Of a stretch of 64,000 nt of DNA, positions 18,497-41,103 are shown piece after piece. The position numbers and the translations under genes are program-made. Source of the DNA: a bacterium (GTDB lineage Bacteria > Planctomycetota > SZUA-567). The stretch spans positions 124,001 to 188,000 of the forward strand of contig QKCJ01000024.1 of assembly GCA_003245715.1 (NCBI GenBank). Reading direction: 5' to 3'. The notes under the pieces were generated by a model, which searched no databases, was not told the DNA's origin, and saw nothing but the letters and a program-made list of their open reading frames with translations. Every line of letters starts with the position of its first letter. Position 1 is the stretch's first letter.

Positions 18497-19441
18497 ATGG
18501 CTGAAGTATCATCAGATGCCAAGACTAAAATGCCTTATATCCCCGGGATTCAGAGCAGCGACAATCTCGGAGACACCTTCCTGTTTGTCATCGCTTTCAC
18601 AATTTCCGGGATTATTATTTTCGCTTACGTGCGCTGGCTTCAGCGCAAGCGCCGCAGCAATCTTGAAAGCATTGCCAATATCGAACAGCACCGGCCGGTT
18701 GCTGACGAGAAGTCGCGCTTTATCGCCTCAAAGCCCATAGCCAACAACTTGTCCGGAACCATGGTTTTCAGCCCCGGTCAGGGAATGAACGTATCTTTTC
18801 CGAGTAAGGGCAAAAATTTTGCATCAACGATTATCAATGTTTCGGCGGAGAGCTTTGTCATTACCTTACCGCGTGAAGACACCGATGACTTCATGCCCTC
18901 GGTTGGTGATATTGCCGCCTTCCACACCGTTAAGGACGGACGGAATCATAATTTCAAAACCAGCGTATTACAGGTCTTCAGCGGAGGCTTGCGCGCCTGC
19001 GCTTTCAGGCATACCGACAATATCGAGGTCACCGACCGGCGCAAGAAGACCAGAGTATCAGGTGAATCGCCGGCACTCTTTTCCTATATCCCGGCAAGCC
19101 TGATTAACAGCAACAAGATACCGTTTTCAGATATCTTCAAAAACATGCAGGGCTATATCCCCGCCAATATGCTTGATATCAGCACCGGTGGCTGCGCTAT
19201 GCGGACACGCTCCCCCCTGCATTTTAACGCCGGTGATCTGGTCGGAATCTACTCAACACTTCCGGATAGCGATGATGAGGAGTACTTTGTTCTTGGCGGC
19301 ATAATTTCAGCGCAGAAAAGCCCACGCAGCGAAGGCGGCGGATCAATTTTGAGCATTGAATTTCTTGGTGTTGAGGAAAAGACCAAAACCAAGCTACGTG
19401 AACATATTTCAAATATTATTGAGGACGAGGTAATCGAATAG
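18497..19441 (+). CDS. Membrane-anchored YcgR-like PilZ protein, c-di-GMP receptor
   Basis: 314 residues with one N-terminal membrane segment (about 28-47, LFVIAFTISGIIIFAYVRW), then a YcgR-type N-domain (about 85-185) and a PilZ domain. The c-di-GMP-binding motifs are DRRKKTRVS (RxxxR, about residue 180) and DISTGG (DxSxxG, about 228), both intact. Two-domain proteins of this type slow flagella or control secretion and polysaccharide synthesis when c-di-GMP rises. Membrane anchoring suggests a local partner. It sits between nifS and a second, smaller PilZ gene. Ribosome site GGAAATGGTG precedes the ATG. Confidence 0.82.
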   Translation: MAEVSSDAKTKMPYIPGIQSSDNLGDTFLFVIAFTISGIIIFAYVRWLQRKRRSNLESIANIEQHRPVADEKSRFIASKPIANNLSGTMVFSPGQGMNVSFPSKGKNFASTIINVSAESFVITLPREDTDDFMPSVGDIAAFHTVKDGRNHNFKTSVLQVFSGGLRACAFRHTDNIEVTDRRKKTRVSGESPALFSYIPASLINSNKIPFSDIFKNMQGYIPANMLDISTGGCAMRTRSPLHFNAGDLVGIYSTLPDSDDEEYFVLGGIISAQKSPRSEGGGSILSIEFLGVEEKTKTKLREHISNIIEDEVIE

Positions 19442-29352: not shown

Positions 29353-29693
29353 ATGTATAAAACAAAAACCCGTGAAGAATTAGAGAAATACCTGCAGGAT
29401 TCAATCAATAATCTGGCACCTAAAAGCATTATGGATAACCGCGAAGCGGTCGGGGAGATCTGCCGCTGGCTCTGCACGCAGGCCTTTCATTACGAGTTAC
29501 TCCGTGACTACGCCGCTGCTAACGCCCTCTTTATGACCCTCCCGCCAATAAAGGGGCAGCACTCGGTAATCTTCTCCAATATCGCCAATAATTTCGGTCG
29601 CCTCGGCAAATTTGATAAAGCTGTCGAGTACGCCCGTATCGCCAAAGAAGCAGCCACAAAAATGCAGATGTGGCAGGAAATGAGCCGCTTCAG
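29353..29693 (+). pseudogene. 5' half of a helical-repeat (TPR-like) gene interrupted by the GGDEF insert
   Basis: Open frame from ATG 29353 encodes a host-like helical protein (AANALFMTLPPIKGQHSVIFSNIANNFGRLGKFDKAVEYARIAKEAA in two TPR-like units; quoted as position guide only in parts) up to MWQEMSRF. At about 29693 the base composition changes sharply to AT-rich and the frame ends at 29724 after about ten foreign residues. The matching 3' half resumes near 30888. The gene is therefore split and probably non-functional, unless the first half works alone as a 123-residue protein. Confidence 0.65.
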
Positions 29694-30887
29694 ATTTCAA
29701 AATCACCCTGTATATTGTAATTGAAAATTTTGAGAATACTTTTTTCTAACATTTTTTTTAACAAATATGCAATATTTATTCCACCACAACCTCAAGGTCA
29801 TACGTTATCGCGTTGCCTGATAAATAGTTGTTGTTTTTTCACTTTACTTATTTTTCATGCCACGAAATAATTGATTGTAGATGGAAAACATATAGGGAGG
29901 AAACACAATGGCTTCAAGTATTATATCAGGAATCCAATCTGACAAACTATTAAGCAAAATCATGAACTCATTATATGATGGCGTTTATTGCATGGATTTA
30001 GACCGTAACATTGTATTTTGGAATAATGCTGCAGAAAAATTAACTGGATATTCTCGTGATGAAGTCATTGGAAATTCTTGTGCGAATAATATCCTTAACC
30101 ATATATCAGAAGATGGCGTATGCTTATGCAAAGAAGGCTGCCCAGCAGTTAAATCTATGACTGACGGTCAAAATAGAGAGGTACTTGCATATTTACATCA
30201 TAAAGTTGGTTATAGGAGACCTGTGTATATCAGGACTAGCCCTATTGTTGATGAAAATGAAAACATTATTGGTGCTGTTGAAATCTTCTCTAGTGCATCA
30301 ATGTTTGTCGCAATGAAACAAACGAACGAACGATTAAAGAAACTTGCTTTTTTAGATGAACTAACGGAGCTTCCCAACAGACGTTTTGCCAATCAAACAT
30401 TAGAGGAATTTCTGTGGACTTTTTCAAATCACAACACTAAATTTGGTGTTGCCATTTATGACATTGACAACTTCAAAAAGATTAATGATACATACGGGCA
30501 TGATGTTGGAGATCAAGCACTCAAAATGGTTGCAAGTACATTAAAAATGGCTATACGTGAAAATGATGTTATTTGCCGATGGGGGGGAGAAGAGTTCTTG
30601 TTTATTTGTCATTGCAATAGCGAAAAGGAATTACTGAATATTTGTGATCGTCATAGAGTATTTGTTGAAAATAGTTTTATTGACAATAAAGGTGAGATTT
30701 TGACTGCAACTATTTCTGGGGGTAAGTGTTTTGTTTGTGAAAAGACTTCTATCAATGATTCTATAAAACGAGCAGATGAGAATTTATACACAAGCAAGCT
30801 ATCTGGGAAAAACCAAATACATTAGTTTCCACTAAAATCGGTTTATTTCCGTCATTAGCCATTTTCTTTGTAAAAACAACGTCTCTT
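29694..30887. mobile_element. AT-rich inserted segment carrying a PAS-GGDEF gene
   Basis: About 1.2 kb with base and codon use quite unlike its surroundings (A/T-ending codons, long A/T runs) interrupts a host gene. The six-base sequence CTTCAG occurs at both edges (29688-29693 and 30891-30896). I see no transposase and no long terminal inverted repeat, so the entry mechanism is unknown. Removing the segment exactly between the CTTCAG copies would not restore the host frame (the halves are offset by one base), so boundaries are approximate or a later indel occurred. Confidence 0.6.
29908..30825 (+). CDS. PAS-GGDEF diguanylate cyclase, horizontally acquired
   Basis: 305-residue cytoplasmic signalling protein. 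A PAS domain (about 15-130; GVYCMDLDRNIVFWNNAAEKLTGYS) includes a Cys-rich stretch with CLCKEGCP, then a short linker (LKKLAFLDELTELPNRR) leads into the GGDEF domain (about 145-300). The active-site loop is RWGGEEF, intact, so it should make c-di-GMP from two GTP. The usual RxxD inhibitory site five residues before GGEEF is not evident. A strong ribosome site AGGGAGG precedes the ATG. The gene is markedly AT-rich and sits inside an insertion that splits another gene, both signs of transfer. The PAS sensor ligand is unknown. Confidence 0.88.
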   Translation: MASSIISGIQSDKLLSKIMNSLYDGVYCMDLDRNIVFWNNAAEKLTGYSRDEVIGNSCANNILNHISEDGVCLCKEGCPAVKSMTDGQNREVLAYLHHKVGYRRPVYIRTSPIVDENENIIGAVEIFSSASMFVAMKQTNERLKKLAFLDELTELPNRRFANQTLEEFLWTFSNHNTKFGVAIYDIDNFKKINDTYGHDVGDQALKMVASTLKMAIRENDVICRWGGEEFLFICHCNSEKELLNICDRHRVFVENSFIDNKGEILTATISGGKCFVCEKTSINDSIKRADENLYTSKLSGKNQIH

Positions 30888-31177
30888 ACACTTCAGCAAT
30901 CGCTCTGGCAACCTGGCTTGCAGCATCCGGCAAGACCGCTGAGACTGAAGATGAATTCTCATCCTGCACCCCGCCGCCGGATTATGACTCGCGCGATGTT
31001 TCAGCCTTCCACTCACTGCGCTGCCAGTATTTCGCCGTCACCAGAAACCGTGAAGAATTAAAAAAACAACTCGCGCTTTCACTCAAATACGACATGGGCG
31101 AAGAGCCATTCCCCTACTATAACCGCATGCTGATCGAGAATGACATCCTGCTTGACGAGTACCGCGATGAAGACTGA
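30888..31177 (+). pseudogene. 3' half of the interrupted helical-repeat gene
   Basis: A frame with host-like composition but no start runs from about 30888 to the TGA at 31175-31177. It reads YTSAIALATWLAASGKTAE and later CQYFAVTRNREELKKQLALS, ending in ILLDEYRDED. Its helical, Ala/Leu-rich character continues the TPR-like pattern of the frame at 29353-29693. It has no ribosome site and is one base out of phase with the 5' half. Confidence 0.6.
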
Positions 31178-31243
31178 TTCAAAGAGCTCTTGGCATAGCT
31201 TATAATTTTTCGATTCCGCCAACCGACGCGCCACAAATAAAAA

Positions 31244-31280
31244 CGCCGCAACCCGTTTATGTCAGGTCGCGGCGCTTTTT
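31244..31280. terminator. Bidirectional rho-independent terminator
   Basis: CGCCGCAACC (31244-31253) pairs with GGTCGCGGCG (31265-31274) with one mismatch around an AT-rich loop. TTTTT follows at 31276-31280 and AAAAA precedes at 31239-31243, so it can end the plus-strand transcript of the broken gene and the minus-strand kinase operon. Confidence 0.85.
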
Positions 31281-31318
31281 ATATCAATAATCTCAGCCAT
31301 AACACAGAGAACAAAAAT

Positions 31319-36045: not shown

Positions 36046-36522
36046 TTACTCGGTTCTAGCCATCGCCACGCGGCCTGTGCGCATCATCTCAACAATGCCA
36101 AACGGATTGAGCATCTTGACAAAACGGGCAAGTTTATCCTGGTCGCCGGTGAGTTCGAGAATAACCGCTTTTTCAGCCATATCCAGAATATTAGCTCCAA
36201 AAACCTCAGCTATGGTACAAACTTCAGTACGCTTGGCCGAAGTCGTCTTGACCTTAACCAGCATCAGGTCACGAACCACGCAGGGAGTATCGCGGAAATC
36301 CTGTACCCGTATGGTATCAACGAGTTTACTGAGCTGCTTGCGGACCTGTTCAAGAATGGCATCATCACCAGGCACCACCACCGTCATACGGCTGACATCA
36401 GGGTCTTCAGTCTCACCAACCGCAAGAGACTCGATATTGAAACCACGCGCAGAAAAAAGCCCCGCAACCCGTGCAAGAACACCCGGCTTGTTGCGCACCA
36501 ACGCTGAAATTACATGCCTCAT
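36046..36522 (-). CDS. ilvN: Acetolactate synthase small regulatory subunit (IlvN/IlvH)
   Basis: 158 residues from ATG 36522 (AGGA upstream); the longer frame to 36591 lacks a ribosome site. The N-terminal ACT domain (about 1-75) has HVISALVRNKPGVLARVAGLFSARGFNIESL-type residues (quoted motif NKPGVLARVAGLF) that bind valine, and a C-terminal domain completes the subunit. It controls acetohydroxyacid synthase in branched-chain amino acid synthesis. The large catalytic subunit ilvB is not adjacent, which is unusual. An acetolactate decarboxylase is present at 55956, so acetolactate is a metabolite of interest in this organism. Confidence 0.93.
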   Translation of the reverse strand: MRHVISALVRNKPGVLARVAGLFSARGFNIESLAVGETEDPDVSRMTVVVPGDDAILEQVRKQLSKLVDTIRVQDFRDTPCVVRDLMLVKVKTTSAKRTEVCTIAEVFGANILDMAEKAVILELTGDQDKLARFVKMLNPFGIVEMMRTGRVAMARTE

Positions 36523-36938
36523 TTTAGCATCCTGTCTATATCCAGATAATCGACAAATAGCCCTAATACATTCCTTGCCAATGAGTTGCAAACCAGATAA
36601 GCGAAAAACGCCTGCGAGATCAGGTTTACCGGCAACAAAAAAGAGCTACAAACTCAATCTATTTTCCGTAAGCAGAAAAAAAACGCAAGCATATTTTTTC
36701 AGTATAAACCAAATTTATCATTATTATACAGGCTGAATACTGCGCAGGAAAAAACGGAAAGAAGCATTAACCCCAGTATTTATGCCAGCATATAAAGCCT
36801 AAGTAACGCAATAAATCACTCGCAAAGGTTATTATTACAAATTCGATTGTGTTTATAATCAACCATTGCCCTACTCCTTGCCTTCCCTATAATAATCAAT
36901 ATAATATCGGTAACGCCACAACACGAAAGCGAGAAATA
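36523..36938. other. Divergent intergenic region between ilvN and bioB
   Basis: No gene. It has TATAAT at 36854-36859 (plus strand, toward bioB) and at 36728-36723 (minus strand, toward ilvN), each without a convincing -35. No BirA-type operator (TTGTAAACC and its inverted copy) was recognised. Confidence 0.35.
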
Positions 36939-39642: not shown

Positions 39643-39885
39643 TCAAACCAGCTTTCATCAGGAAAAACAAAATCAATAAGCACCATTTTAATCTGATATT
39701 CATTAAAAGCAAGACATATACCGCCTTTCAAAATTCCCGGCAGAAAACAGGGCTGGAAAAACTTAAATTTCTGTCGTAAATTCAAAATCTGAATAATTTT
39801 ATTTTTCTTGTGCGAAAAAGAAAATAACCTTGATAAAGAATTTGATCTGTGCTTAAATATAGTTGTATCCTATTTTTACTCATTT

Positions 39886-41103
39886 ATGAATGGATTATTA
39901 TCCGTGACTGACTTTTCTTCAATCCGTTGTCTGTTAGTAGAGGACGAATCATTCCAGCAGGAAATTGCTGTTGTCGTTCTTAAACAGGCGGGGATAAATG
40001 ACATTTCAGTGGCAACCGACGGCCTTAAGGCTGTAGCGATGCTGGAGAAAGCGCAGGAAAAGGGCGCCCCATTTGAGCTTATTATTTCCGACCTTGGATT
40101 GCCTAATATGGATGGCGTTGAATTTATCCGTCATCTGGCAAACAACAATGTCAACTCAGGCATTATCATTATCAGTTCAATGGACAAGAAAATTATTGAT
40201 ACGGTGGAACTGGTTGCAAAGACACACGCGCTTAATATCCTCGGCTCAATCGAAAAGCCACTCAAACCCGCGGCAATCAAAGATCTCCTGACAAACATGA
40301 GCTGCACTATCACCCCAAAACAAAAGAGTGACAGCTATTCACTGGATGCTACAGACCTTCAGAATGCTATTGAACAAATGCATATTGAATCTTTTTTTCA
40401 GCCGAAATTCCACTTCAGCAATAAATCAGTGGCTGGCATGGAAGCACTCGCGCGCTGGCGCGACCCTGATCTTGGTTTTATCAGCCCCAATGTATTTATA
40501 CCGCTGGCTGAAAACAACGGGCTGATTTCACTGCTTACCGAGAGAATTCTAGAATGCGCAATTTCCGGAGCGTCACCGCTTATTGCGGCTAATCTTGTAC
40601 CGTCAGTCTCAATCAATGTCTCTGTTGACCTGCTGGATTCACTGAGCTTTCCGGATTATGTTTACAATATGACCAGAAAGTACGGCTTGGAACCAAAGGC
40701 TGTAGTTCTGGAAGTGACAGAGAGCCGGGGCATCTCTGACCTGGCCAAGGCGCTGGACAGTCTGGTGCGCCTGCGCATGAAGGGGTTCCGCCTCTCGCTT
40801 GATGATTACGGAACAGGCAGCTCTACACTTGAGCAGCTTTCACGAATACCTTTCAGCGAGCTTAAAATTGACCAGTCCTTTGTTACCGGCACCTGGGAAA
40901 AATCCGAGCAGCGGATCATTCTTGAGTCTACGGTAACGATGGGGCGCAACCTTGGCCTCTCTATTGTTGCTGAAGGAATTGAAACCACCGAGGACTGGAA
41001 CTATATTTCATCGCTTGGCTGTGACGAGGGACAGGGCTTTCTCATGTGCCGTCCGCTTCCGGTTTCAGACCTGGCGCCGTTTCTGGCCGGTTCATCCTGG
41101 TAG
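39886..41103 (+). CDS. Response regulator with EAL domain, c-di-GMP phosphodiesterase
   Basis: Receiver domain (about 12-135) with acidic pocket LVEDES and phosphoacceptor Asp69 in IISDLGLP, followed by an EAL domain (about 165-400). The EAL active site looks complete: GMEALARW, SINVSVD, LEVTES, SLDDYGTGSS, LKIDQSF, VAEGIET and DEGQGFL. Phosphorylation should control breakdown of c-di-GMP. I take ATG 39886; an in-frame TTG at 39808 and a GTG at 39904 are alternatives, and no start has a strong ribosome site. The next gene, 41 bases on, is a hybrid histidine kinase with a LOV-like PAS domain, so the two probably form one pathway. Confidence 0.88.
   Translation: MNGLLSVTDFSSIRCLLVEDESFQQEIAVVVLKQAGINDISVATDGLKAVAMLEKAQEKGAPFELIISDLGLPNMDGVEFIRHLANNNVNSGIIIISSMDKKIIDTVELVAKTHALNILGSIEKPLKPAAIKDLLTNMSCTITPKQKSDSYSLDATDLQNAIEQMHIESFFQPKFHFSNKSVAGMEALARWRDPDLGFISPNVFIPLAENNGLISLLTERILECAISGASPLIAANLVPSVSINVSVDLLDSLSFPDYVYNMTRKYGLEPKAVVLEVTESRGISDLAKALDSLVRLRMKGFRLSLDDYGTGSSTLEQLSRIPFSELKIDQSFVTGTWEKSEQRIILESTVTMGRNLGLSIVAEGIETTEDWNYISSLGCDEGQGFLMCRPLPVSDLAPFLAGSSW

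Follow-up and report, generated by a model that had tools for sequence, protein, structure and literature searches.

How a single diguanylate cyclase gene came to lie inside a host gene, and what its arrival may have meant for the cell, is the question raised by one locus in the window, by which we mean the whole stretch of 64,000 nucleotides analysed here. A first-pass annotation, made from the letters of the DNA, had read the locus as a helical-repeat gene split by about 1.2 kb of AT-rich DNA and had called the event a cargo-only insertion. That DNA has been inserted into a host gene is, in our assessment, near certain, and the features on which this rests are collected in Table 1. The draft genome comprises 63 contigs totalling 3.75 Mb, with a completeness of 91%.

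Table 1. Coordinates of the interrupted gene, the insert and the cyclase, numbered from the first nucleotide of the window
Feature	Position	Strand	Basis or remark
Host gene, left (N-terminal) half	29353..29691	+	ORF; aligned with five intact homologues
CTTCAG, left edge (repeat named in the first-pass annotation; boundary unlikely here)	29688..29693	+	
Insert, 1198 bp	29692..30889	.	Frame-keeping join; homologue spacing; composition segmentation
AT-rich insert leader, without long ORF	29693..29907	+	GGGAGG ribosome-binding site 29895-29900
Diguanylate cyclase, 305 aa: PAS then GGDEF	29908..30825	+	Pfam; alignment with 15 homologues
Short insert tail	30826..30889	+	Without terminator-like or attC-like site
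Host gene, right (C-terminal) half	30890..31174	+	Homologue alignment; HMM nodes 151-234
CTTCAG, right edge	30891..30896	+	

Two halves of one interrupted host gene

The left ORF begins at 29353, is host-like up to 29691/29692 and then runs on through about ten codons of the AT-rich insert, while the right half is host-like from 30889/30890 to a stop at 31177 and has insert sequence in frame on the 5' side of its host-like part. For the right half there is a match in an open frame of 227 residues at another place in this genome, and against this paralogue the protein obtained by joining the two halves is matched over residues 2-208 of 208 (7e-14); the joined protein also matches a protein of genome G019 across residues 69-205. 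A search of 294 genomes with the resulting three-row alignment gave three more long-coverage matches (in G026, G165 and G121); 76 of the 294 genomes were positive at E 1e-4, those that were not used being partial matches to the model with E values of 6.6e-8 or weaker. The number of uninterrupted homologues that pass through the junction is five, including the paralogue in the genome itself.

When the halves were added separately to the alignment of these five homologues, the end of the left half and the start of the right half fell in neighbouring columns. The joined query had been part of the alignment and was for this reason removed before the HMM test, in which, with the search space set to 1, a model built from the five intact homologues alone placed the left half at nodes 76-147 (3e-9) and the right half at nodes 151-234 (7e-12). 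The splitting of one host gene, as claimed in the first-pass annotation, is borne out by the five homologues that span both halves and by this docking at adjacent nodes. Judged from these alignments, the two halves make up a single gene for a protein of a putative TPR-like helical-repeat family; the best Pfam TPR score of the left half is 16.4 bits, against a curated cut-off of 27, and the right half has no Pfam TPR match. The spanning homologues are distant, with 27% and 23% identity to the joined protein in the two that were measured, so that a minor indel of ancestral origin where the halves meet is possible.

In the right half, the TGA at 31175-31177 stands where all five intact homologues carry a conserved Trp (YRxxxWF), and it is followed in the same frame by six further codons and a second stop. 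Such an early stop fits the decay of a dead gene, and it could also be older. Each half of the host gene also carries one copy of a 47-nt direct repeat (29362-29408 and 31040-31086, 72% identical, with a REEL motif), which may reflect internal repetition within the protein family or be coincidental.

Among 60 relatives, the left half was found in its own genome only and the joined protein in its own genome and G019 only; among 16 family genomes, the right half was found in its own genome, at two places, and in one weak match elsewhere (E 0.07). In the stretches viewed from five family genomes, the neighbouring amylase and kinase genes never occurred together, so that gene order across the site is not conserved in those stretches. 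The relatives searched, which included no other genome of the genus, contained neither an orthologue at the insertion locus nor a true empty site. None of them has the two halves as separate genes with the same cyclase between them, and this counts as weak evidence given that they offered no congener and no orthologue of the locus.

Extent and foreign composition of the insert

Joining 29691 to 30890 leaves the reading frame uninterrupted and no host residue lost, and the spacing then fits that of the paralogue residue for residue, without a gap. With this join the boundaries are placed to within a base. The dinucleotide CA is common to both edges (29691-29692 and 30889-30890), which leaves the boundary a play of 1 bp in either direction and limits any target duplication to 2 bp at most. 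A match of two bases at one fixed register is found in 16% of random position pairs in the window, and the shared CA is uninformative.

The first-pass annotation had pointed to the CTTCAG at both edges and to an offset of one base between the halves. The hexanucleotide is indeed present, at 29688 and at 30891, but it is an unlikely boundary because halves joined there are out of frame; the offset is seen with that join and vanishes when 29691 is joined to 30890. The in-frame join is preferred; a CTTCAG boundary would call for an additional indel where the halves meet. The target duplication would measure no more than 2 bp with the frame kept, and 6 bp with CTTCAG and the frame not kept. Sharing of the CTTCAG type (at least six bases over seven registers) occurred in 1.5% of 20,000 random position pairs in the window, and its occurrence here is suggestive only.

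The insert is compositionally foreign. Compared with the 43 remaining ORFs of 400 nt or more in the window, the cyclase gene has a GC content of 34.6% against 50.8% (sd 2.9, z -5.5) and a GC3 of 27.5% against 56.1% (sd 4.5, z -6.3), in agreement with the earlier description of the insert as clearly AT-rich, and segmentation by composition alone delimits the insert at 29711-30882. By codon-usage score the cyclase is second lowest among the scored window ORFs, and only the ORF at 36077-36736 is lower. The latter, whose codon use is the most atypical of all those scored and which lacks a Pfam match, could be a spurious reading frame or of foreign origin. A further observation concerns the leader, where positions 29779-29838 of the minus strand give a 20-residue reading that is GC-richer than its surroundings and resembles a protein C-terminus; no match to it was found.

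An intact PAS-GGDEF cyclase and its relatives

The insert holds one intact PAS-GGDEF gene, as the first reading had it: the GGDEF domain (PF00990) scores 136.1 bits against a curated 23.8, and the PAS domain (PF00989) scores 49.3 bits, above its cut-off. In an alignment with 15 homologues, the GGEEF motif (as RWGGEEF) and the RxxD inhibition site (I-site) are both intact, while a cysteine cluster in the PAS domain (CxC...CP) is present in some of the homologues and absent from others. The sequence GGGAGG just 5' of the gene would serve as its ribosome-binding site. These features suggest that the product may well be an active enzyme.

The closest relative of the cyclase among 294 genomes of the phylum is 44% identical. 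Within the class (29 genomes, its own included) the best other match is at 38%, and 27 of the 28 other genomes gave no match at E 1e-45 or better, the one match being of 38% identity. The genome_contigs collection held nine loci at 29-37% identity and the viral_contigs collection none; plasmids contributed two records at 31-32% identity, and 72 phage records had partial matches, none of them covering 80%. The donor would, to go by the composition of the insert, have been an AT-rich organism.

Orphan PAS-GGDEF cyclases of about 300 aa occur elsewhere in the phylum (G040, G270, G188, G300 and G088) and share with the present one the domain order, the length, the I-site and the GGEEF/GGDEF region, but they reach at most 44% identity to it. 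At the ten loci that were viewed, the relatives of the cyclase are flanked by other genes, and the leader and tail of the insert shared nothing by blastn with the cyclase-relative loci compared. In G040 and G088, three cyclase relatives have as neighbour a short gene encoding about 130-185 aa (L088 6730-7131, L090 4973-5377 and L094 3833-4387), which, by eye, we take to resemble a STAS/anti-sigma-antagonist protein.

The window that received the cyclase also encodes a PilZ protein (18497-19441) and a REC-EAL response regulator (39808-41103). The former is a candidate c-di-GMP receptor and the latter a candidate phosphodiesterase, so that c-di-GMP would have partners here.

Route of entry and biological meaning

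We consider the non-homologous gain of a fragment of about 1.2 kb, bearing one orphan cyclase gene and inactivating the host gene, to have about an even chance of being correct, and it is the most economical reading that we can infer from the locus. In its favour are the homologues that pass through the junction and the docking of both halves at adjacent nodes, the in-frame join, the outlying GC3 of the cyclase and its intact motifs, the lack of strong matches to it in all but one of the other genomes of the class, the PilZ and EAL neighbours, and the negative searches for mobile-element features given below. A piece of DNA from an AT-rich donor, comprising a complete orphan PAS-GGDEF gene together with the leader and ribosome-binding site that precede it, would have entered the TPR-like host gene without loss of host bases, either by end joining or by illegitimate recombination of the incoming DNA at microhomologies, and without a recognisable transposon. 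The host gene is thereby inactivated, its left half gaining a short foreign tail and its right half being severed from its start. Since the cyclase points in the direction of the host gene, either its own leader or read-through from the host could be used for expression, and production of c-di-GMP under the control of the PAS sensor would then feed into a host network that already holds EAL and PilZ proteins.

Several observations weigh against such a non-homologous entry. An insert as tidy as this one, with a single gene, could equally well be a mobile unit or a fragment taken at random; an edge repeat like CTTCAG is expected in only about 1.5% of cases by chance, while the shared CA is uninformative; the searches yielded no donor, the nearest cyclase being 44% identical, and no empty site at the locus; and the homologues that define the junction are distant. 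In addition, Ku gave no match at E 0.001 in this 91%-complete genome, so that classical bacterial non-homologous end joining would be unavailable unless Ku was missed. IS110 (PF01548) and the Y1 transposase (Y1_Tnp) likewise gave no match at that threshold, a result that speaks for the non-homologous reading; control searches among 14 named genomes gave matches in 4 for IS110, 5 for Y1 and 1 for Ku.

Signs of a mobile element were sought in the insert, at its ends and in its surroundings. No transposase or recombinase was present in the insert or among the 45 window proteins scanned (the two halves and the cyclase counted) at the Pfam thresholds used, and this part of the earlier cargo-only reading stands. 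The other part, a mobile element moving in the absence of its own transposase, lacks support: terminal inverted repeats at the insert ends scored 0, a search for further copies in the genome returned a single match, which was the window itself, and the insert DNA matched no phage or plasmid record. Rfam likewise gave no match across 29500-31300 at E values up to 1, and single-strand folds of the insert ends were unremarkable against shuffles (z -1.49 to 0.97). Exact matches of short end patterns in the viral_contigs collection (2 and 68 stretches) were attributed to chance, as no locus among them resembled the insert.

Set against known families, the insert lacks both the terminal inverted repeats and the additional genomic copies of a DDE-type insertion sequence; for the IS200/IS605 type, no subterminal hairpins beyond those of shuffles and no Y1 transposase match were found in the 91%-complete genome, nor was there a recombinase match for the IS110 type. 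Insertion sequences with passenger genes and non-autonomous elements exist, and like them the insert has a passenger gene without a transposase in a broken host gene; it differs from them in having no terminal inverted repeats, a duplication that, with the frame kept, does not exceed 2 bp, and one copy only.

The main rival to the non-homologous gain, which we regard as rather unlikely, is a non-autonomous unit with defined ends on which a recombinase supplied in trans would act at a core of 0-2 bp, of the serine-recombinase or IS110/IS200 type, with the cyclase as passenger. The precise entry, with no host bases lost and no more than 2 bp shared, and the single passenger gene with its leader of 215 bp would suit such a unit, as would the lack of inverted repeats, since serine-recombinase and IS110/IS200-type families usually have none. 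Against it stand the single copy in the genome, the missing IS110 and Y1 transposase matches, the unremarkable end folds and the lack of any copy of the insert, by DNA, in phage or plasmid records. The stronger proposal, that a transposase-free one-gene unit served by a recombinase elsewhere in the cell, with a core of 0-2 bp and no inverted repeats, spreads a c-di-GMP synthase between bacteria, strikes us as decidedly doubtful.

A decayed transposon or larger island is unlikely too, somewhat more so than the trans-mobilised unit. Here the CTTCA or CTTCAG would be a target duplication of 5-6 bp, the transposase and inverted repeats would have been lost, and the frame offset would stem from an earlier or later indel in a dead gene. 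The infrequency of such an edge repeat by chance is consistent with this history, as is the early stop at the Trp of the homologues, which marks a gene that is possibly decaying; yet it requires an additional frameshift at the junction, the paralogue spacing fits the join without loss residue for residue, and no inverted repeats are left. An assembly artefact, with DNA of another organism misjoined into the contig, is very improbable: a draft in 63 contigs and the differing composition of the insert would allow for it, but the two flanks are parts of a single gene and fit together with no residue missing, and a misassembly would have had to leave the gene at one base and re-enter it at the next. 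Least probable of all is an integron gene cassette at a secondary site, which the single ORF of about 1 kb in the direction of the host gene might recall, but which is largely refuted by the absence of attC core motifs (GTTRRRY or RYYYAAC) from 29650-29740 and 30820-30930 and fits poorly with the 215-bp leader, which is long for a cassette.

Gains of single genes in this manner have precedents, and diguanylate cyclases are already known as cargo of mobile DNA. In Vibrio alginolyticus, diguanylate cyclases reside on a genomic island that moves horizontally (PMC10672970). These island cyclases are likewise on mobile DNA and in principle able to alter the c-di-GMP of a recipient, but they come three to an island (PMC10672970), whereas the present insert has one gene on 1.2 kb and no recognisable mobility gene.

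Given its near-base boundaries, the locus offers a clean case of the horizontal gain of a single gene at a visible cost, namely the loss of a host gene. If the reading as a one-gene element mobilised in trans were true, its cargo would be one that rewires signalling, and the discovery of this 1.2-kb unit at another site, with identical ends, would point to a so far undescribed mechanism by which single signalling genes move.
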